From NCBI GenBank assembly GCA_902806095.1, contig CADCVF010000014.1:1-47773 (forward strand): a stretch of 47,773 bases of DNA, in the 5' to 3' direction. Positions 32,162-42,502 of the stretch are shown in pieces. The stretch's first letter is position 1, and every line of letters begins with the position of its first letter. The stretch is from an uncultured Rubrobacteraceae bacterium. GTDB lineage: Bacteria > Actinomycetota > Rubrobacteria > Rubrobacterales > Rubrobacteraceae. The position numbers and the translations under genes are program-made. The notes under the pieces are model-generated. The model ran no database searches. It was not told the origin of the DNA and was given only the letters and a program-made list of their open reading frames with translations.

Positions 32162-32264
32162 ACCGCTACCGGGATCAGAGGCGTAGGCGAATGTGGGAAG
32201 GTTCCTGTGGCGGAGGACGTTGCCGTCATGGGAAGGATACCTGCACGCCGAGGAGGAACTAAGG

Positions 32265-33680
32265 ATGGCAGAGCAACACAGGTTCAGCCGGGGACGCTTT
32301 CTGCGACTCTCCGCGATGATGGCAGGTGGCGCGGTGCTGGTTGGGTGTAACCTCGAGGAGGGTGGCGGTCCTCCCGGTTCGGGCAATGGTGGAGGCGAGG
32401 ACGTCGACTTCAGCAAGATTCAGGCGGGCGGACAGAGCCAGGAGCTGGAGAAGCTGGCGGAGGACTGGAAGCCTTATGACGGCGAACCGGTAGAGATCTC
32501 GGTCTGGATGTACACTCCGGACGAGAGATCTTTGAACGCGTACAAGAAGGCGTTCGAGAAGAAGTACTCGAACATCAAGCTCAAGTACGTCATCTATCCG
32601 GAAGCAAACTACGTGACCAAGATCAACGTGGCGCTGCAGGCCCACAACCCTCCTGACGTAGCCATAGTAGAGGAAAAAGGCTGGATGAAGGCCGGCCTGG
32701 TCGCCGATCTCGCCCCGTTCTATGAAGCCTGGGGCATCCGCGTCGAGGATTTCGCCCCTGGCGGCGTGGGACGCTTTACGTTGGAAGATGGGCCAAAGCA
32801 GGGCGTCTTCGGCGTGGGCGACTTCCTCGCCGGCAACGTCATGATGTTCAACAAGGACCTCTTCGACCAGGCTGGTGCCGACTATCCGCCCGTGGATCGG
32901 TCGCTGGAGTGGCCTGAGTACGCCGAGCTCTGCCGCCAGGTGGCGCAGCCCAACGAAGACCCGACCAAAGCCGTTTACTGCGGCTCCGTGCCCGACTGGG
33001 GGTTCGGCATCTACGGGAAGTGGCTCTTCGGCCCCGACGGCCGGCGCGTCTTCGGCCACATGAACTCGGAGGAGCACATCGAGGCGTGGAACCTGGGCAG
33101 CGCGCTGGTGCGGGACAAGATCTCGCCGGGACAGATTCTCGACACGGTAGGTGAGCCCGACCTTTTCACCCAGAAGGGCACCGCGATGGTGTGGACGGAC
33201 TTCACGTTCGTCCGAGACTACGAGGCGGCAGGCATCAACTTCGGGATCGTGCCGTCGCCGGTGCAGACCGGCTCCGTGTCGTTCGTGGACACCTGGACCA
33301 CCGCGTGGGGCACGTTCGTCGAGTCCAAGAACCACCACGCAGCGCTGACCTTCCTGGAGTTCATGGGGACCGACGCGCAACGCATCAGGGCCGAGGTGTC
33401 GGTGGACCCGCCGCTCTCGCTCAAAATTGCCGAGGAGATCGACTACGGGGCGGGAGACCCGATCCAGGAGGAGTACCTGAAGGTGCTCGAAGCCGGCGCC
33501 AAGCCGCAGGTGTTCGTCCCTCCCCTGCCTGAGGGTGGGTGGGAGCCCGCCGAGGTTTACAATGACATGACAGTCCAGGGTAAGACCGACGCCAAGCCGA
33601 TCCTCGAAGCCGAAACCAAGCAGACGCAGCCGTTGCTCGACCAGGCGTGGAAAGACTGGGATGCGCTCGAGAGGAGCTAG
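32265..33680 (+). CDS. ABC transporter sugar-binding lipoprotein (family 1)
   Basis: 471 residues. A twin-arginine-like but imperfect signal (SRGRFLRLS) is followed by a lipobox AVLVGC, so it is probably lipidated and displayed outside the membrane. The mature part follows the extracellular sugar-binding fold: VEISVWMYTPDERSLNAYKKAFEK, then VALQAHNPPDVAIVEE, KDLFDQAGADYPP and later FLEFMGTDAQR. ATG 32265 has GAGGAGGAACT upstream; the frame open to 32193 lacks support. It is the first gene of an importer operon with two permeases, a small anchored protein and a GH43-type glycosidase, so the ligand is probably an oligosaccharide released from plant-type polysaccharide. No ATPase is encoded in the operon, so a shared MsiK-type ATPase is likely. 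Confidence 0.9.
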   Translation: MAEQHRFSRGRFLRLSAMMAGGAVLVGCNLEEGGGPPGSGNGGGEDVDFSKIQAGGQSQELEKLAEDWKPYDGEPVEISVWMYTPDERSLNAYKKAFEKKYSNIKLKYVIYPEANYVTKINVALQAHNPPDVAIVEEKGWMKAGLVADLAPFYEAWGIRVEDFAPGGVGRFTLEDGPKQGVFGVGDFLAGNVMMFNKDLFDQAGADYPPVDRSLEWPEYAELCRQVAQPNEDPTKAVYCGSVPDWGFGIYGKWLFGPDGRRVFGHMNSEEHIEAWNLGSALVRDKISPGQILDTVGEPDLFTQKGTAMVWTDFTFVRDYEAAGINFGIVPSPVQTGSVSFVDTWTTAWGTFVESKNHHAALTFLEFMGTDAQRIRAEVSVDPPLSLKIAEEIDYGAGDPIQEEYLKVLEAGAKPQVFVPPLPEGGWEPAEVYNDMTVQGKTDAKPILEAETKQTQPLLDQAWKDWDALERS

Positions 33681-33716: not shown

Positions 33717-34682
33717 ATGAGCATGCCTTCACAGCAGTTGGGTAAGCAGGAGATCGCGCACCCCCAACCCCGCCGTAGCAGGGCCGCTGCGAAGGAAGAG
33801 CGGGTCGCCTATCTGTTCCTGATGCCCTGGTTCGCGGGGCTATTCCTGTTCCTCGGGGTGCCGCTGGTGTACTCGCTGTACATCAGCATGACCGACAGGC
33901 GTTTGATCAGTGCCGGCAAGGCGCACTTCGTGGGCCTCCAGAACTACGTCTACATGTTCACCAAGGACGCCTTCTTCTACAAGTCCCTTCTCATAACGAT
34001 GAAGTGGATACTGATGAGCACGCCGCTCTTCCTGGTCGTCGGGCTGCTGATCTCACTCCTGCTCAATCAGAAGTACTTCGGGATGAACGTGTTCCGTACG
34101 ATCCTCTACATCCCGGCCGTCGTCTCAGGCGTGGCCGTTGCGGTCCTCTGGCTGAACCTCCTCAATCCCGAGCTGGGCGTCGTGAACTACGTGCTGATAC
34201 AGCTCGGCGTGGACAACCCACCGTACTGGCTGGAGGACCCCGAGTGGGCGATGCCCGCGGTCGTCCTGATGGGCTTGTGGGGCGTGGGCGGAATGGCGAT
34301 CATCTACCTGGCGGGCCTGCAGAACATCCCGCCGCACCTGTACGAGGCGGCCACCATAGACGGCGCAGGCGCCTGGGGGAAGTTCCGCTACGTAACGCTG
34401 CCGATGCTCTCCCCCACCATCTTCTTCCTGGTCCTCAACGCCGTAATCGATGCGCTACTGATCTTCGGTCCACTGTTCGTGCTTACCGGCGGAACGGGCG
34501 GGGGCGGACCTGACAATTCACTGCTCTTCTACATGCTGTACCTGTATCGGATCTCGTTCGTTCAGGGGTTCATGGGCTACGGCACGGCACTCGCCTGGAT
34601 CCTCACGATCATCGGCGTGCTCATGGTCGTCATCATGATGAAGCTGGAGCGGCGCTTCGTGTTCTACGAGTCGGAGGAGTAG
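33717..34682 (+). CDS. ABC sugar transporter permease (MalF/UgpA type)
   Basis: 321 residues with six membrane segments; the first follows a basic N-terminus (RRSRAAAKEERVAYLFLMPWFAG). The EAA loop that contacts the ATPase is YEAATIDGAGAWGKFRYVTLPMLSPT near residue 205. GGAGGT precedes ATG 33717. It pairs with the next gene to form the heterodimeric channel for the binding protein at 32265. Confidence 0.9.
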   Translation: MSMPSQQLGKQEIAHPQPRRSRAAAKEERVAYLFLMPWFAGLFLFLGVPLVYSLYISMTDRRLISAGKAHFVGLQNYVYMFTKDAFFYKSLLITMKWILMSTPLFLVVGLLISLLLNQKYFGMNVFRTILYIPAVVSGVAVAVLWLNLLNPELGVVNYVLIQLGVDNPPYWLEDPEWAMPAVVLMGLWGVGGMAIIYLAGLQNIPPHLYEAATIDGAGAWGKFRYVTLPMLSPTIFFLVLNAVIDALLIFGPLFVLTGGTGGGGPDNSLLFYMLYLYRISFVQGFMGYGTALAWILTIIGVLMVVIMMKLERRFVFYESEE

Positions 34683-34685
34683 GAG

Positions 34686-35576
34686 ATGGCACAGCGTGCT
34701 GCGGAGAGGCCGGTCGTTACAGCGCAATCCCCACGGGTGCGGCGGTTCCCGCGGATGTTGCACGCCGTGTTCGTGTACACCATGCTCACCTTGGCGAGCC
34801 TGTTCATCCTGCTGCCGGTGGGCTGGATGCTGGCCGCCGCGCTCAAGCCGGATACCGTGCCGGTCTTCACCTTCCCGCCTGAGTGGTTCCCGACCGAGTA
34901 CTGGCACTGGCAGACGTTCAGGACGGCCCTCTTCCAGGAAGAGTTCCTCCGCTACGCGGCAAACAGCGGCTTCCTGGTGGTCATGACGGTTCTAGGGGCG
35001 GTGCTCTCCTCCTCCCTGATCGCGTTCCCCTTCGCCCGGCTGCGGTTCCGCGGCAAGAACTTCCTCTTCACGTTCCTGATAGCCACGATGCTGCTGCCGG
35101 CGCCCGTGCTGCTCATACCCCAGTTCCTACTCTTTTACCAGATCGGCTGGTACGGAACCTACTACCCGCTCTGGGTACCGACCTTCGCGGGCAACGCGTT
35201 CTTTATCTTCCTAATGAGGCAGTACATGCGCTCGATCCCCATAGAGCTGGACGAGGCAGCGAGGGTAGACGGCGCCGGCTACTGGACGATCTACTGGCGG
35301 ATAATTATGCCCCTGTGCGTGCCGGTGCTGACGGTGGCGGCCGTGTTCCAATTCATGTGGACGTGGAACGATTTCTTCGGACCCCTGATCTACCTCGACG
35401 ACCCCGAAAAGTTCACGGTAGCCCTCGCCCTCGCCAGGCTGGTGCAGCGCGTCGGCACGGAGTGGAACCAGGTCATGGCCGCCAATCTCATCGTCATGAT
35501 CCCCGTCCTGATCATCTACTTCTTCGCCCAGGACAAGCTGATCGGCGGTATCGCCAACGTGGGCCTCAAAGGATAG
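34686..35576 (+). CDS. ABC sugar transporter permease (MalG/UgpE type)
   Basis: 296 residues with six membrane segments. The EAA loop is LDEAARVDGAGYWTIYWRIIMPLCVPVL, followed by FMWTWNDFFGPLIYL, typical of the second permease of carbohydrate uptake systems. It starts 3 bp after the first permease stop and is translationally coupled to it. Confidence 0.9.
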   Translation: MAQRAAERPVVTAQSPRVRRFPRMLHAVFVYTMLTLASLFILLPVGWMLAAALKPDTVPVFTFPPEWFPTEYWHWQTFRTALFQEEFLRYAANSGFLVVMTVLGAVLSSSLIAFPFARLRFRGKNFLFTFLIATMLLPAPVLLIPQFLLFYQIGWYGTYYPLWVPTFAGNAFFIFLMRQYMRSIPIELDEAARVDGAGYWTIYWRIIMPLCVPVLTVAAVFQFMWTWNDFFGPLIYLDDPEKFTVALALARLVQRVGTEWNQVMAANLIVMIPVLIIYFFAQDKLIGGIANVGLKG

Positions 35577-35595: not shown

Positions 35596-36084
35596 GTGAG
35601 GGCGCTGCGCATAGCTCTGTTGCTGGTCGTCACGGCGGAAGTGTGCCTGCTCATACTGGCGCTCGCGCCGCCCGAGAACACACTTCCAGCCGACTCGGAC
35701 TTGCCGAGAGAGCAGCGCGTAAGCGGGTGGCGGAAGGCCGCCGAACTCGCCCGCACGGACACCTTCGAGCTGACCTACGTGCCAGGAGACGTAAGACCCG
35801 AGTTGACGGTGCGCGGCATCCCTGGAGATAGCTCGCGCCCGCTCGCCGCCGAGTACGGGAACGGTCTACTCATGAGACAGGCGCACATAGACATTGATCC
35901 CCAGCTGGAGGATGAACCCGCGGAGGTGAAGGGGGCCAATGACGCCTGGTGGGGCATGATCAGGGAGAAAAGGTACCTCTATGTAAAGAGAGGCAAAACT
36001 CTGGTAATCATGTCTGGCCTGCCGAGGGAGGATCTGATCCAGACCGCAGGCTCGCTGAGACTCGTGGAGGTCAACAATGGCTAG
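35596..36084 (+). CDS. Small membrane-anchored protein of unknown function
   Basis: 162 residues from GTG 35596. Residues 5-25 are hydrophobic (LRIALLLVVTAEVCLLILALAPP) and likely anchor it or act as a signal. The outer part is mixed, with SGWRKAAELARTDTFELTYVPGDVRPELTVRG and LYVKRGKTLVIMSGLPREDLIQTAGSLRLVEV, which looks like a small alpha/beta domain; no family recognised. It sits 19 bp behind the permeases and its end overlaps the next start by 8 bp (ATGGCTAG), so it is part of the operon and may be an accessory component of uptake or of the glycosidase. Confidence 0.6.
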   Translation: MRALRIALLLVVTAEVCLLILALAPPENTLPADSDLPREQRVSGWRKAAELARTDTFELTYVPGDVRPELTVRGIPGDSSRPLAAEYGNGLLMRQAHIDIDPQLEDEPAEVKGANDAWWGMIREKRYLYVKRGKTLVIMSGLPREDLIQTAGSLRLVEVNNG

Positions 36085-36196
36085 GTGGCGCGCCGTCGTG
36101 GCGCTGGCGGCCCTGGCTCTCTTGCTCGCGGCATTTCTACTCGCCATACCTTCCGTACGTGCAGCGTTGCCTGGCATGACCCAACGCGCTGAATAG
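36077..36196 (+). CDS. 39-codon signal/anchor segment ending in an amber codon, in frame with the GH43 domain
   Basis: ATG 36077 is preceded by a clear GGAGG with six-base spacing. The 39 residues begin MARWRAVVALAALALLLAAF and form one hydrophobic span or signal peptide, then LPGMTQRAE and TAG at 36194-36196. The next codon continues in the same frame as the glycosidase domain with no other start codon before it. Read as one gene with the following entry, this is the N-terminus of a secreted or anchored GH43 protein broken by a single stop. It may also be a real microprotein. Confidence 0.6.
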   Translation: MARWRAVVALAALALLLAAFLLAIPSVRAALPGMTQRAE

Positions 36197-37150
36197 ACGA
36201 ACCCCGTTGTACGCTGGGACTTCGCGGACCCGCATGTCATAAAGGCCGGCGACGGCTGGTACTACGCTTACTCGACCGAGAACCTGACCTACGAACGCCT
36301 GGCGTACATCCAGGCCGCGCGCTCCAGGGACCTCGTGAACTGGGAGCTGCTTCCTGACGCCATGCCCGAGAAGCCGGAGTGGTCCGACACCACCCGCGAC
36401 TTCTGGGCCCCGGGCGTCATCGAGGCCGACGGCAGGTACTATGTGTACTTCTCGGGCATCCGCGACGGTACCGAGGGCATGTGTCTCGGGGTGGCCACGT
36501 CAGGGACGCCCGGTGGACCGTTCGAGCCCGAGGGCGAGCCGCTGCGGTGCGGTGACGGCTTCGTGAACATAGACCCCATGCCCTTCGACGACCCGAAGAC
36601 GGGCAAGCGCCTGTTGTACTGGGGTTCGGACAGCTCGCCGATCATGGTGCAGGAGCTTGCCGAGGACCGGGTGAGCTTCGCGCCGGGTTCAAGCCCGAAG
36701 GAGTTGATCTGTCCCAGCGGCCTGCAGCAGTACGAGCGCCTGATCGAGGGTGCGTTCGTCGTCTACAGAGACCCTTACTACTACCTCTTCTATTCGGGCG
36801 ACAACTGCTGCGTCGTGCCCGTGAACTACGCGGTGATGGTCGCCCGTTCGCGCAGCGCCACGGGCCCGTTCGAGAAGAAGGCCGACGTGACGGGCGAGTT
36901 CGGCGGCAGCGTGATCCTGCAGCAGAACGACCGGTGGGAAGGTCCCGGTCACAACTCGGTCGTCAGGGACGAAGAGGGCAGAGATTGGATCTTCTACCAC
37001 GCCATAGACCCCGACGACCGCTACAACCCGGGTACCGAGGCGTCCAAACGACCGATGCTCATGGACCAAATCGTGTACCGCTCCGGCTGGCCCGAGATCG
37101 CAGAGTCTTCACCCTCTACTACAGAAAGGCAAGGCCCGCTGGTGCGCTGA
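36197..37150 (+). CDS. GH43-type glycosidase domain, interrupted upstream by an in-frame amber codon
   Basis: 317 codons in frame with the preceding 39-codon segment. The five-bladed beta-propeller features are present: the first blade RWDFADPHVIKAGDGWYYAYST holds the catalytic-base aspartate in ADPH; DFWAPGVIEADGRYYVYFSG is the second blade; FVNIDPMPF has the pKa-modulating Asp; LIEGAFVVY has the catalytic acid Glu. Members hydrolyse arabinan, arabinoxylan or xylosides. No ATG, GTG or TTG occurs between the TAG (36194) and GTG 36335; starting at 36335 would delete the first blade and the catalytic base. So the gene is either a recent pseudogene, needs stop-codon readthrough, or carries a sequencing error. 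Confidence 0.75.
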   Translation, partial: TNPVVRWDFADPHVIKAGDGWYYAYSTENLTYERLAYIQAARSRDLVNWELLPDAMPEKPEWSDTTRDFWAPGVIEADGRYYVYFSGIRDGTEGMCLGVATSGTPGGPFEPEGEPLRCGDGFVNIDPMPFDDPKTGKRLLYWGSDSSPIMVQELAEDRVSFAPGSSPKELICPSGLQQYERLIEGAFVVYRDPYYYLFYSGDNCCVVPVNYAVMVARSRSATGPFEKKADVTGEFGGSVILQQNDRWEGPGHNSVVRDEEGRDWIFYHAIDPDDRYNPGTEASKRPMLMDQIVYRSGWPEIAESSPSTTERQGPLVR

Positions 37151-37207: not shown

Positions 37208-37999
37208 TTACCCCATCCGTGACCGCAGGTGTCGGGCGACCTCGGGGAGGATCTCCCTGGCGTTGCCCCTGATACCACACTCCATCGCCATGTAGCCATC
37301 GAAACCGATGTCGCGCAGCGCCCCGAAGGCCCCGGCGAAGTCGGTGTGCCCTGCACCCGGTTGGAGGCGGTTGCTGTCGGCGAGATGGACGTGGGCCATG
37401 TGGCCGTTCGCCTGGCGGATGGCTTCGTCGAGATCGTCCTCCTCGATGTTCATGTGGAAGAGGTCGCCCATGACTTTGATGGAAGGACGTCCGATTGCCT
37501 CGCATAGCTCGACTGCCTGCTCTACGCGGTTCAGCATGTGGTCCTCGTAGCGGTTGAGCGGCTCGAGCAGCACGAGCGCCCCCACGCTCTCCGCGTGCAC
37601 GCCAAGCTCCTCCAGGGCTTCCAGCAGAACACGACGGTCCTCTTCCTCCGTGCGGGGCACCTCGAAGGGGGGCAGACGCCTGGTGGCGAGGCCGAAGGCT
37701 GCGGGTGTGATCGCGCCCCTCCCACCTAGCTCGGCTATTCCTGACAGCAGGTGCTTCATGTGCTCTATGGCCTCGCGGCGGCGCTCCTCTTCGAAATCCC
37801 CGATAAACCGGTCGGAGATCACGCACACGCTAGAGAACACGACTCCCCTATCACGCGCGGCCCTCAGGTCGTCGAGCCGCCCGCGCCAGCCATCTGTCCC
37901 CTGCAGCTCGATGCCGTCGAAGCCTGCTGAGGCGGCGAACTCCCACTTCTCCAGGATGCTCTCGCCCGGGAGTAGCTGCTCCTGGCACACCAGCTTCAC
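37208..37999 (-). CDS. Sugar phosphate isomerase/epimerase (TIM barrel)
   Basis: 263 residues, a paralogue of the protein at 21,142-21,930: LVLLEPLNRYEDHMLNR, MGDLFHMNIEEDD, HVHLADSNRLQPGAGHTDF and MAMECGIRG match motif for motif. These hold the metal ligands and the general acid/base glutamates. The gene is last in the ROK-SBP-permease-permease operon, 10 bp after the permease stop, and is convergent with the GH43 gene. It probably converts an imported sugar; the exact reaction is unknown. Confidence 0.86.
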   Translation of the reverse strand: MKLVCQEQLLPGESILEKWEFAASAGFDGIELQGTDGWRGRLDDLRAARDRGVVFSSVCVISDRFIGDFEEERRREAIEHMKHLLSGIAELGGRGAITPAAFGLATRRLPPFEVPRTEEEDRRVLLEALEELGVHAESVGALVLLEPLNRYEDHMLNRVEQAVELCEAIGRPSIKVMGDLFHMNIEEDDLDEAIRQANGHMAHVHLADSNRLQPGAGHTDFAGAFGALRDIGFDGYMAMECGIRGNAREILPEVARHLRSRMG

Positions 38000-38009
38000 G
38001 CCTGACGCC

Positions 38010-38894
38010 TCATCCCTTCAAGGCGCCGGTCGTGAGGCCTTTGATAAAGAACCGCTGGAAGATCAGGAAGAAGATCAGCACGGGGACGGTCATTATCAGG
38101 CTTGCGGCGGCCAGAAGCTCGTACTCCCCCGACCGCCCGCCCGCGAACAGGTAGAGCCCGGTGGCGAGCATCTGGTTGTCCGACCCCTGCAAGTACACCA
38201 GGGCCAGCACGAAGTTGTTCCAGGTCTGGAAGAAGACCAGTACCGCAAGCACCGCCACGCCCGGGGCCGACAGCGGGAGCATCACGCGCCAGAAAGCCTG
38301 AAACTCGTTGCACCCGTCCACGCGGGCGGCGTCGGCGAGGTCTTCGGGCAGGTCCATGTAGAAAGAGCGCATCAGGAACACGCCGAGGGGCACGCCGAAC
38401 CCGCTGGCGCCCGCTATGGCGGGAAGAATGACCGCGGCTTTCGTGCCCAAAAGACCCAGGTCCCTCAGCTCGTAGAACAGCGGGATCATCACCGAGAAGA
38501 ACGGGATCATTAGGCCAAGGATGAACACGAAGAAAATGAGATTGTTTCCGGGAAATTGGAAGCGGGCCAGGCCGTAGCCGGCCAGCGACGAGAGGGCCAC
38601 CACACCGGCCACGGTGATGCCGGTGATCACGACGGTGTTCCAGAAGTACCCGCCAAAGCCCCCGAGCGTCCACGCGTCGTAGAAGTTGATGGGGTTGAAC
38701 GAGCTGAACAGCGTGAACGGGTTCGCGGTCACGTCCAGCGGGTCTTTGAGGGAAGTAGAGACGATCAGAAGCAGCGGGTACAGGCTGAGGAGGGCGAACA
38801 GCAGCAGCACCACGTACTTGCCAGTGGAGCCCAGCCACCGTCTCGGTGCGCCGGTGGAGGCGGTGGACGCTATTCCTTGTCGCGGTTCAGTCAT
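38010..38894 (-). CDS. ABC sugar transporter permease (MalG type)
   Basis: 294 residues, six membrane segments. The EAA loop is LADAARVDGCNEFQAFWRVMLPLSAPGV, then FFQTWNNFVLALVYLQG. Its first 8 bp overlap the upstream permease gene (ATGACTGA), so translation is coupled. It forms the channel with the MalF-type partner for the binding protein at 39,860. Confidence 0.9.
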   Translation of the reverse strand: MTEPRQGIASTASTGAPRRWLGSTGKYVVLLLFALLSLYPLLLIVSTSLKDPLDVTANPFTLFSSFNPINFYDAWTLGGFGGYFWNTVVITGITVAGVVALSSLAGYGLARFQFPGNNLIFFVFILGLMIPFFSVMIPLFYELRDLGLLGTKAAVILPAIAGASGFGVPLGVFLMRSFYMDLPEDLADAARVDGCNEFQAFWRVMLPLSAPGVAVLAVLVFFQTWNNFVLALVYLQGSDNQMLATGLYLFAGGRSGEYELLAAASLIMTVPVLIFFLIFQRFFIKGLTTGALKG

Positions 38895-39846
38895 TTCTCT
38901 GGCGCTCCCTCAGTCGGACGAACACGACCGCCGAGACCAGGGACAGGACGGTGATCAGCATCGCCAGCGCGGAGCCGTAGCCCGCCTGGTTCTGCTGGAA
39001 CGCCGAGCTGTACGTGTACGTGGCGAGCACCTCGCTGGCGTGCCCCGGTCCTCCCCCGGTCATTACAAAGACGTTGTCGAAAACCGCGAAGCCGCCGATG
39101 AGCGTGATAGACGTCACCATCGTGATCACCGGGGCGATCTGCGGGATGATGATGTACCAGGCCCGCTGGAACCAGCTGGCCCCGTCCAACATGGAAGCCT
39201 CCACCTGGCTCTCGTCCACGCTCTGAAGGGCCGCGAACAGCACGACCACGACGAACCCGACGGCGCCGGGGATGGCCGAGATCAGAACCGCGTACAGCGC
39301 CGTCCCCGGCTCTCCCAACCAGCCGCGGCTGATCTGCTCGAGCCCGATGCTGTCGAGGAACCTGTTCAGCGGGCCGAAGATGGGATGGTAGATCCACTGC
39401 CACACGATGGCCACGACGACCAGCGGAAGCACGAATGGGAGAAAGTAGACGGTCCTGAAGAAGAGGGACCCGCGGGCCCCACTCCAGAGGATGATCGCCA
39501 GGAAAAGCCCGATGATCACGGGGGATGCCGTCCCGACGAGCACCCAAACGGCGTTGTTCCAGAACGCTTGGAGGACTGCCCCGTCGCCGAACATCCTCGC
39601 GTAGTTCGAGAGCCCGACGAAGTCCTTGTTCGCCGTGGCGCCGTTCCAGTTGGTGAGGCTGAGGTAGATCGTGGTCAGGAAGGGATAGAGCATGAAGACA
39701 AGGTAGAGGGCCAGCGCGGGTGAGATGAACACGATCGCGTAGTAGAGCTGCTGACGGCGCAGCGGCGGCACGTACAGATGACGCTCGACGAAGCCTCGTT
39801 TGGGCCGGTTCACCCGTGTGGCTCCGCCTTCCATACCGGCTTGCAT
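38887..39846 (-). CDS. ABC sugar transporter permease (MalF type)
   Basis: 319 residues, six membrane segments; the basic RHLYVPPLRRQQLYYAIVFISPAL leads into the first. The ATPase contact loop lies around EASMLDGASWFQRAWYIIIPQIAPVI. AAGGGG precedes ATG 39846. It is 13 bp after the binding-protein stop. No ATPase is encoded in this operon either. Confidence 0.9.
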   Translation of the reverse strand: MQAGMEGGATRVNRPKRGFVERHLYVPPLRRQQLYYAIVFISPALALYLVFMLYPFLTTIYLSLTNWNGATANKDFVGLSNYARMFGDGAVLQAFWNNAVWVLVGTASPVIIGLFLAIILWSGARGSLFFRTVYFLPFVLPLVVVAIVWQWIYHPIFGPLNRFLDSIGLEQISRGWLGEPGTALYAVLISAIPGAVGFVVVVLFAALQSVDESQVEASMLDGASWFQRAWYIIIPQIAPVITMVTSITLIGGFAVFDNVFVMTGGGPGHASEVLATYTYSSAFQQNQAGYGSALAMLITVLSLVSAVVFVRLRERQRND

Positions 39847-39859
39847 TCCGATCCCCTTC

Positions 39860-41173
39860 CTATTCCTGCGTGGCTATCTTGCCTTGCTTCTTGGCCTTCG
39901 CCCAAGCCTCCTGCAACATCGCGGCCTGCTCGGACGCGGACCTCGTGCCGTTCAAGACCTCCTGGAAGCCGGAGAACATCACCTCGTTGTAGTTCTGCGG
40001 GGTCAGGACGTCGATGTTGTAGCCGAAGGATCCCGCCTCCGTAGATTCCGACAGGTCGTCTAGAACCTGCTTGAACAGCTCGGGGAGATCAAGCCCCTTG
40101 GTGTCAACCGGATGCGCCGGAATGGTCTTGGTCGTCTCCATAACTGTGCGGGCAGTGTCTTCTTGCTGGTAGAAATCCATGAGGGCGATGCCACCCTCGG
40201 GGTTCTTGGCGTCCGCGGCTATGAACGAGCCCGCCCCTACACCCGCCGGCGGTGAGATGCCGGAGCCGTCTATGGACGGGAACGGGAAGAATCCGACCTC
40301 GAAGTCCTGGACGGTCTCGACGATCTCGGAGACGAGCCAGGTGCCCGTCATGTTCATGGCGGCTTTCCCAGCGTAGAACAGAGTGTTGGCGTCCTCGTAC
40401 GTAATAGCGTTGACGCCCTCGGGATAGTAACCGTTCTCCACGAAGTCCCGGAAGAAGAGCTCTATCGCCTCCTCCACCTCCGGGGTGTCCCAGCGGCCTT
40501 CGCCGTACAGGATGTTGTCCAGCCCTTCCCTGCCCAGGAGGTTGCTGATCCCGATGCTGTACAGGTGACCCGCGGGCCACTGCTCGGAGTCGCCGAAGCC
40601 GAACGGGATCTTGTTCTGTCCCTTGAGGTTTTCGGCCATCGCCCGGAGATCATCCAGGGTCTTCGGCACCTCGGAGACTAGGTCCTTGTTGTAGTAGACG
40701 ATCAGTTGCTCGACCTGGCTCGGGACCCCGTAGGTCTTGCCGCCGTAGGTGGCCCGCTGCTTGGCCCAGTCGTAGATCTTCCAGCCGTTTTCCTCGTACG
40801 CCTTGTCCAAGGGGTACAGCAGCCCCGCCTCCGCCAGAACGCCGGCGAAGCCCGGGCCGGTGTCGTAGCCGAAGAAGTCGGGGGGCTGCTCGGAGCGCAG
40901 CCTGGTCTGGATAACCTCACGGACCTGGTCGGGCGGTATGGACTCGCGCTCCACCGTGTACTTCGGGTTCTCCTGATCGAACCTCTCGACGAGCCTGATC
41001 GACTCCCTCTCCAGGGCCGCCGTCTCCGCCGTACCGACGAACATCCGGATAACCTTTTCGTTACTCGAGCTCCCGCCGCAGCCCGCGGCGCCTAGCAAAG
41101 CCGCGCCGGCGAGGCCACCGCCACCCAACCTCAAGAAATCCTTCCGGCTGACCGTCCTTCTCGTCTTCCGCAC
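39860..41173 (-). CDS. ABC transporter sugar-binding lipoprotein (family 1)
   Basis: 437 residues from GTG 41173, which has AAGGAGG 6 bases upstream; the frame open to 41209 is not supported. The N-terminus is a Tat-like signal (SRKDFLRLGGGG; a KR rather than RR pair) with lipobox LGAAGC. The mature part shows RMFVGTAETAALERESIRLVERF, DFFGYDTGPGF, TLFYAGKAAMNMTGTWLV and later ALMDFYQQEDTAR, all as in sugar-binding proteins. It is the second gene of the operon beginning with the ROK regulator. The ligand is unknown. Confidence 0.9.
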   Translation of the reverse strand: MRKTRRTVSRKDFLRLGGGGLAGAALLGAAGCGGSSSNEKVIRMFVGTAETAALERESIRLVERFDQENPKYTVERESIPPDQVREVIQTRLRSEQPPDFFGYDTGPGFAGVLAEAGLLYPLDKAYEENGWKIYDWAKQRATYGGKTYGVPSQVEQLIVYYNKDLVSEVPKTLDDLRAMAENLKGQNKIPFGFGDSEQWPAGHLYSIGISNLLGREGLDNILYGEGRWDTPEVEEAIELFFRDFVENGYYPEGVNAITYEDANTLFYAGKAAMNMTGTWLVSEIVETVQDFEVGFFPFPSIDGSGISPPAGVGAGSFIAADAKNPEGGIALMDFYQQEDTARTVMETTKTIPAHPVDTKGLDLPELFKQVLDDLSESTEAGSFGYNIDVLTPQNYNEVMFSGFQEVLNGTRSASEQAAMLQEAWAKAKKQGKIATQE

Positions 41174-41227
41174 GCTCTCCTCCTTCTCTATTTTTGCGAA
41201 CGTCCCCAACGCCGCATCGAAGCCTCA

Positions 41228-42466
41228 CTAGCCCACCCTCGTCTGCAATACTCCCTCCGCCGCCAAGACGCTCGCACCCGTTACACCGGCCGTCTGGTCG
41301 AGTTCGCTCAAGACTATGGAGAGGTTCCTCGTCGCGAGCGGCAGCGAGCGTTGATAGACGGTGCTCCGGATCTCCGCAAGCAACGAGTTGCCTATGTTCG
41401 CCACGCCTCCCCCGACCACGATGAGGGAAGGGTTGAGCGTGCTGACGAGCGTGGCCAGCACTTGCCCCACGAGCCGCCCCGACTCCCTGATGATCTGGAG
41501 CGCATGATAATCTCCGAGGGACGCCGCCTCGCCAACGTCCCTGGCTGTGAGCGCGCCACGCTGCTCGAAGACCTCCCGTAGACGCAGAGAGAGGCCTTCC
41601 TCCGCGCACTGCTCCGCTTTGGCGGCGATTGCCGGAGCGGCGGCCATCGCTTCGAGGCATCCCTTGTTGCCGCACGAGCAGACCGGCCCGTCAGGGTCCA
41701 CGCAGATGTGCCCTATGTCCCCGGCACACCCCTGGCTGCCGCGTTGCAGATGCCCGTCCGCGATGATGCCGCCGCCGATACCCGTGCCTATCTTGACGAA
41801 GAGCACGTTGTCTTCGCCCTTGCCGACACCGTCTCTATGCTCGCCGAGTGCCATCACGTTCACGTCGTTGTCCACGAATACGGGGGCATCGTACTCGTCG
41901 GCGAACGCCGCGCGTATGGGAAAACCGTCCCAACCAGGCATGATCGGCGGGCTCCTCAAGACGCCCGAGGCGTGCTCCACAGGACCAGGAACCCCTACCC
42001 CTATGGACAGGACGTCGCGCGCATCAGCCCCCTGCTCGGCGAGTAGCTCCGAAAGCAGCCCCTTGGCCCCGTCGAGCACACTCCGCGGACCGTCCTTGAC
42101 ATCCCCCGGCTCCCCGCGGTGTACCAGAATCTCGCCGCCAAGGGTGGACAGGGCGACGTCCGTGGAAGTTGCCCCGAGGTCAACGGCGGCTATCAGTCCG
42201 GCTGTATGGGGGATGCGCAATAGCGAGGAGCGACGGCCACCCTCCGACTTGGCCAGGCCGTCCTCGGCGAGGAGGCCGGCCTCGATCAACCGTCCTACCT
42301 CCATAGAGATCTTGCTCCTGCTGACGCCCAACGCATCCGTCATCTCGGAGCGCGATACAGGACGGTCCATCGTCCTTACGTGATGCATGATCTCAGCCTG
42401 AACGCGGTCCTCGACAAGCCGATGCCGGCCACCGGCTACCTCCGATACACCGTCTTCACTCCTCAC
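41228..42466 (-). CDS. ROK-family transcriptional regulator
   Basis: 412 residues. An N-terminal winged helix (DRPVSRSEMTDALGVSRSKISMEVGRLIEAGLL) is followed by the ROK sugar-kinase fold: IAAVDLGATSTDVAL (phosphate loop), FVDNDVNVMALGE, FVKIGTGIGGGII and the zinc motif VCSCGNKGCLEAM. Members such as NagC, Mlc and XylR bind a sugar or sugar phosphate and release their operators. I start at GTG 42466 because a -10 TATACT ends 6 bp before it and no start further upstream has a ribosome binding site; the longer frame begins at 42502. The binding-protein gene follows after 54 bp. It is the natural candidate for the regulator of the arrays at 21.0 and 32.1 kb. Confidence 0.9.
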   Translation of the reverse strand: MRSEDGVSEVAGGRHRLVEDRVQAEIMHHVRTMDRPVSRSEMTDALGVSRSKISMEVGRLIEAGLLAEDGLAKSEGGRRSSLLRIPHTAGLIAAVDLGATSTDVALSTLGGEILVHRGEPGDVKDGPRSVLDGAKGLLSELLAEQGADARDVLSIGVGVPGPVEHASGVLRSPPIMPGWDGFPIRAAFADEYDAPVFVDNDVNVMALGEHRDGVGKGEDNVLFVKIGTGIGGGIIADGHLQRGSQGCAGDIGHICVDPDGPVCSCGNKGCLEAMAAAPAIAAKAEQCAEEGLSLRLREVFEQRGALTARDVGEAASLGDYHALQIIRESGRLVGQVLATLVSTLNPSLIVVGGGVANIGNSLLAEIRSTVYQRSLPLATRNLSIVLSELDQTAGVTGASVLAAEGVLQTRVG

Positions 42467-42472
42467 GAACAC

Positions 42473-42502
42473 AGTATAGACAAACTTCCTCCATACGTCC
42501 AA
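42473..42502 (-). promoter_or_regulatory. Promoter of the ROK-ABC operon
   Basis: On the minus strand TTGGAC (42502-42497) and TATACT (42478-42473) are 18 bp apart; the -10 ends 6 bp before GTG 42466, predicting a leaderless transcript. TATACT lies in the context GTCTATACTGTG, the same as at the rightward promoter of array B. Confidence 0.6.

Follow-up and report, generated by a model that had tools for sequence, protein, structure and literature searches.

In-frame stop codons are common in bacterial genes, and most of them are short-lived (Belinky et al. 2021, PMC7918605). Since such stops are documented as common, the case that we describe here is ordinary. It lies in a window of 47,773 nucleotides from an uncultured Rubrobacteraceae bacterium (contig CADCVF010000014.1 of assembly GCA_902806095.1), where the only GH43 gene that we found in the genome is split by an in-frame TAG.

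The split gene closes an operon for carbohydrate uptake that lies on the + strand throughout. The operon begins with an ABC solute-binding protein (32193-33680, PF01547), which is followed by two ABC permeases (33717-34682 and 34686-35576, both PF00528) and by a 162-amino-acid protein with an N-terminal hydrophobic segment (35596-36084). This protein is encoded directly upstream of the GH43 gene and matched no family in Pfam or NCBIfam. The GH43 start codon (ATG at 36077) overlaps the end of the upstream gene, whose own TAG is at 36082-36084. Facing the GH43 operon, on the minus strand, is another carbohydrate ABC operon (37208-42502), which encodes an isomerase/epimerase, two permeases, a binding protein and a ROK regulator. 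The two operons may be co-regulated.

The basic layout of the split gene is as the preliminary description had it. A Shine-Dalgarno sequence (GGAGGT, 36066-36071, + strand) lies 5 nucleotides ahead of the ATG, which opens a leader of 39 codons (36077-36196 with its stop, + strand). The encoded peptide, MARWRAVVALAALALLLAAFLLAIPSVRAALPGMTQRAE, looks by eye like a Sec-type signal peptide. The leader is closed at codon 40 by the TAG (36194-36196, + strand). The GH43 catalytic domain then continues in the same frame for 317 codons, up to a TGA at 37148-37150 (36197-37150, + strand). Our scan for in-frame starts confirmed that there is no ATG, GTG or TTG in the 46 codons after the TAG; the first is a GTG at 36335-36337 (+ strand), which is too late for an active enzyme, as starting there would delete both the NPV motif and the catalytic-base aspartate. 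No usual start codon past the TAG would thus give a complete GH43 domain. This start-less stretch of 46 codons has the score of coding sequence (0.55 bits per codon; the remainder of the gene has 0.43, and the operon's binding protein and one of its permeases have 0.48-0.57) and can be aligned with homologues, so the frame after the TAG is more than a chance opening.

The frame after the TAG matches PF04616 over nearly its full length (183.8 bits against a cut-off of 32.2, E = 5.9e-54, profile positions 2-288 of 288), and the match opens with the codon that directly follows the TAG. In our alignment (A1), the gene retains the nearly invariant D11, the invariant D126 and E184, and H252. We take D11, D126 and E184 to be the catalytic base, the pKa-modulating aspartate and the catalytic acid of GH43. 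By sequence, the nearest relatives with a solved structure are endo-1,5-alpha-L-arabinanases (PDB 6a8h, 1wl7 and 3cu9), and like the GH43 arabinanases, the split gene has a full GH43 domain, the conserved acidic residues and a PGH motif. Unlike them, it scores far too low for the named arabinanase models (104 bits with AbnA, whose cut-off is 480), so the substrate is uncertain. We infer that the enzyme probably acted on arabinan or on a related arabinoside or xyloside.

We read the codon that aligns with the TAG in 19 homologues, which we collected in public genomes and in genomes related to that of the window. The preliminary description had proposed looking for a sense codon at position 40 in orthologues, and all 19 homologues have one. 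It encodes tyrosine in 17 of them (15 TAC and 2 TAT); the two exceptions, L028 with phenylalanine and L024 with leucine, are both distant. The six closest readable homologues (L003, L004, L005, L007, L008 and L013; 47-63% identity) all have TAC. The TAG stands two codons ahead of the asparagine of the NPV motif. The operon's own tyrosine codons are mostly TAC (61, versus 9 TAT), so the likely change is TAC to TAG, which takes one substitution, a transversion. The split arrangement is present in one genome only. In the order's other 38 genomes we found no orthologue that has the same module, nor any closer one, and this prevents us from dating the change on this lineage.

Of the full-length homologues, the closest two (L003 and L004) are from Chloroflexi-labelled metagenome-assembled genomes. 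In both, a homologue of the 162-amino-acid protein is encoded directly upstream of the GH43 gene (35% identity in L003 and 38% over 87 amino acids in L004; tblastn E values of 2e-23 and 1e-13), the GH43 start overlaps the upstream stop, the hydrophobic leader is unbroken, and transporter homologues are close by. Because these loci keep the upstream gene, the overlap and an unbroken leader, we conclude that the leader at 36077 is the genuine start of the gene and that the module is intact elsewhere. The preliminary description had named, as an observation that would refute it, orthologues with a start equivalent to 36335; this possibility is refuted. We also rejected a true start at 36335 in the split gene, because both the homology and the coding signal extend to the TAG.

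The upstream protein deserves a comment of its own. A protein of 158-162 amino acids is conserved just before a secreted GH43 in distant genomes (35596-36084 in the window, 3396-3872 in L003 and about 3606-3866 in L004), and it is probably an accessory protein of the sugar-uptake module. The relatives in which we searched for it gave no match. Also, in L004, homologues of the binding protein and of the second permease are fused in a frame of 302 amino acids (1127-2044) with the intervening parts missing, which reflects either an internal deletion or a misassembly.

We propose, with a probability of roughly 0.7, that the genome's only GH43 enzyme was recently lost to a nonsense mutation, so that a signal peptide of 39 amino acids is released and no active enzyme is made. 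Until recently, the operon would have encoded a binding protein, two permeases, the anchored 162-amino-acid protein and, as its closing gene, an ordinary secreted GH43 enzyme. A point mutation would then have converted the conserved tyrosine codon just ahead of the xNPV motif, most likely TAC, to TAG. Ribosomes starting at 36077 would now release the signal peptide, and apart from traces made by near-cognate readthrough there would be no enzyme, because the next usual start (36335) lies past the catalytic-base segment. Since the GH43 gene is the last in its operon, we expect no polar effect of the stop. The stop, the tyrosine in relatives, the intact remainder of the gene and the ordinary genetic code are all directly shown, whereas we infer that the population really has this base and that the enzyme is lost as a result. 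The preliminary description had also suggested that the stop might switch the product between a secreted enzyme and a free signal microprotein; a stop that is found in one genome only, one substitution away from a conserved tyrosine codon, gives this idea no support.

If the gene was inactivated, this appears to have happened recently. The frame after the TAG is undamaged and has no second stop, and the catalytic residues are in place, so the stop is young. The split protein deviates at 3 of 75 columns that are invariant in its close homologues, and the five closest homologues, some of them partial, each deviate at 1-6. Among random substitutions in the frame, 4.2% would add a stop, or 0.4 expected stops per 0.01 substitutions per site. 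Had the frame drifted neutrally, its lack of a second stop would imply, by our estimate, less than roughly 0.07 substitutions per site since the stop arose (a 95% Poisson bound under a flat substitution model). An intact frame does not fit long-standing decay; it does fit a mutation that is recent, a strain variant or an erroneous consensus base. Two observations count against a recent nonsense mutation: TAC to TAG is a transversion, which is rarer than a transition, and the lack of decay elsewhere in the gene would also be expected if the base were an error or the gene were in use.

The main rival explanation, which we consider unlikely, is that the TAG is a consensus or assembly error and that the living population (or part of a mixture of strains) has the tyrosine codon and an intact enzyme. 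In favor of an error, the assembly is a draft in 85 contigs (estimated contamination 3.4%, estimated completeness 98.6%), the TAG is one base away from TAC, and the gene has no other damage. However, the site lies outside homopolymers and repeats, and a wrong single base is rare in the consensus of a well-covered assembly. A contaminant contig can be rejected: the GC content of the window (0.628) agrees with that of a sample of the genome (0.60-0.65), and a gene 8 kb from the GH43 gene has matches at 74-82% identity in most genomes of the same genus, so the contig belongs to this genome.

It is improbable that the stop is functionally read through, with near-cognate tRNA-Tyr or another tRNA reading UAG often enough to give a useful yield of secreted enzyme. 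The intact downstream frame, with residues that look constrained, would be consistent with this, as would the purine directly after the TAG, because work in E. coli has found that a purine 3' of TAG favours suppression. However, the youth of the stop explains the intactness equally well. Conserved programmed readthrough is recognized by a stop that is kept in orthologues, and no homologue (0 of 19) has a stop at this codon. Useful readthrough would need suppressor machinery or a stop that is conserved, and as we saw neither, we rate it low. More doubtful again is the specific version in which the TAG has gone to fixation and the species reads it as tyrosine at a useful rate, with termination efficiency setting a low level of secreted GH43. 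The preliminary description had put forward three causes. Of these, the relatives favor a fresh nonsense mutation, leave a sequencing error open and give amber readthrough no support.

The genetic code is ordinary in this genome. Release factors RF1 (TIGR00019, over the cut-off) and RF2 are both present with intact frames. In a sample of 448 kb (about 12% of the genome), a simple gene finder based on open reading frames and composition predicted 290 genes, of which 116 (40%) end in TAG, 128 in TGA and 46 in TAA, and TAG terminates all four upstream genes of the operon. In the same 448 kb, we scanned for split genes, defined as any stop followed by at least 20 start-less, coding-like codons, and the GH43 gene was the sole case, so the many in-frame TAG codons that the preliminary description had thought worth looking for did not turn up. 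Nor did any of 44 PF00528 domains contain an internal stop. As for a suppressor tRNA, none of the 43 Rfam tRNA matches across all contigs of the genome has the anticodon CUA. tRNA-Asp and tRNA-Phe are also missing from this incomplete list, which suggests that there are gaps in the assembly despite its high estimated completeness, and a CUA tRNA gene within such a gap is not strictly excluded. We also considered whether the one match that ARAGORN missed and left untyped (G000:C82:32149-32218, or L077; 32.8 bits with Rfam) might be a hidden suppressor, but its anticodon loop, CUUCUAA, reads UCU (arginine), and it is a candidate tRNA-Arg(UCU) with a short D arm. The release factor, the stop codon usage, the tRNAs and the scan for split genes together lead us to reject genome-wide recoding of TAG. 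Recoding as pyrrolysine is rejected as well, as no protein in the genome scored over the cut-off of the PylD model and the weak matches below it resemble those that the model gives in most of the control genomes, E. coli included.

Least probable is that ribosomes terminate at the TAG and reinitiate at the non-standard ACG at 36197, just past it, to give a leaderless cytosolic enzyme: L007 and L008 appear to be leaderless, with starts a few codons before NPV, so a leaderless GH43 is viable, but ACG is a very poor start codon, there is no ribosome site before it, the closest homologues carry leaders, and no feature of the sequence speaks for such a start.

The case matters mainly for annotation: the only GH43 gene of this genome ought to be flagged as interrupted and not entered as an enzyme of 271 amino acids from 36335. 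Like loci with pyrrolysine or amber-suppressor recoding, this one has an in-frame TAG that is followed by conserved coding sequence. Unlike them, it is in a genome with an intact RF1 and with TAG as a normal terminator, where we found no CUA tRNA and no PylD over the cut-off. A readthrough locus can be told apart from an ordinary nonsense mutation by checking which residue relatives have in place of the stop, and here intact homologues have a sense codon where the TAG stands, as in nascent nonsense pseudogenes. It resembles those pseudogenes (PMC7918605) in having a single TAG in an otherwise intact and conserved gene and in seeming short-lived. It differs from the worked example of that study, a CAG/TAG site in several Paenibacillus species, in that the TAG is in one genome and its relatives have tyrosine (TAC).
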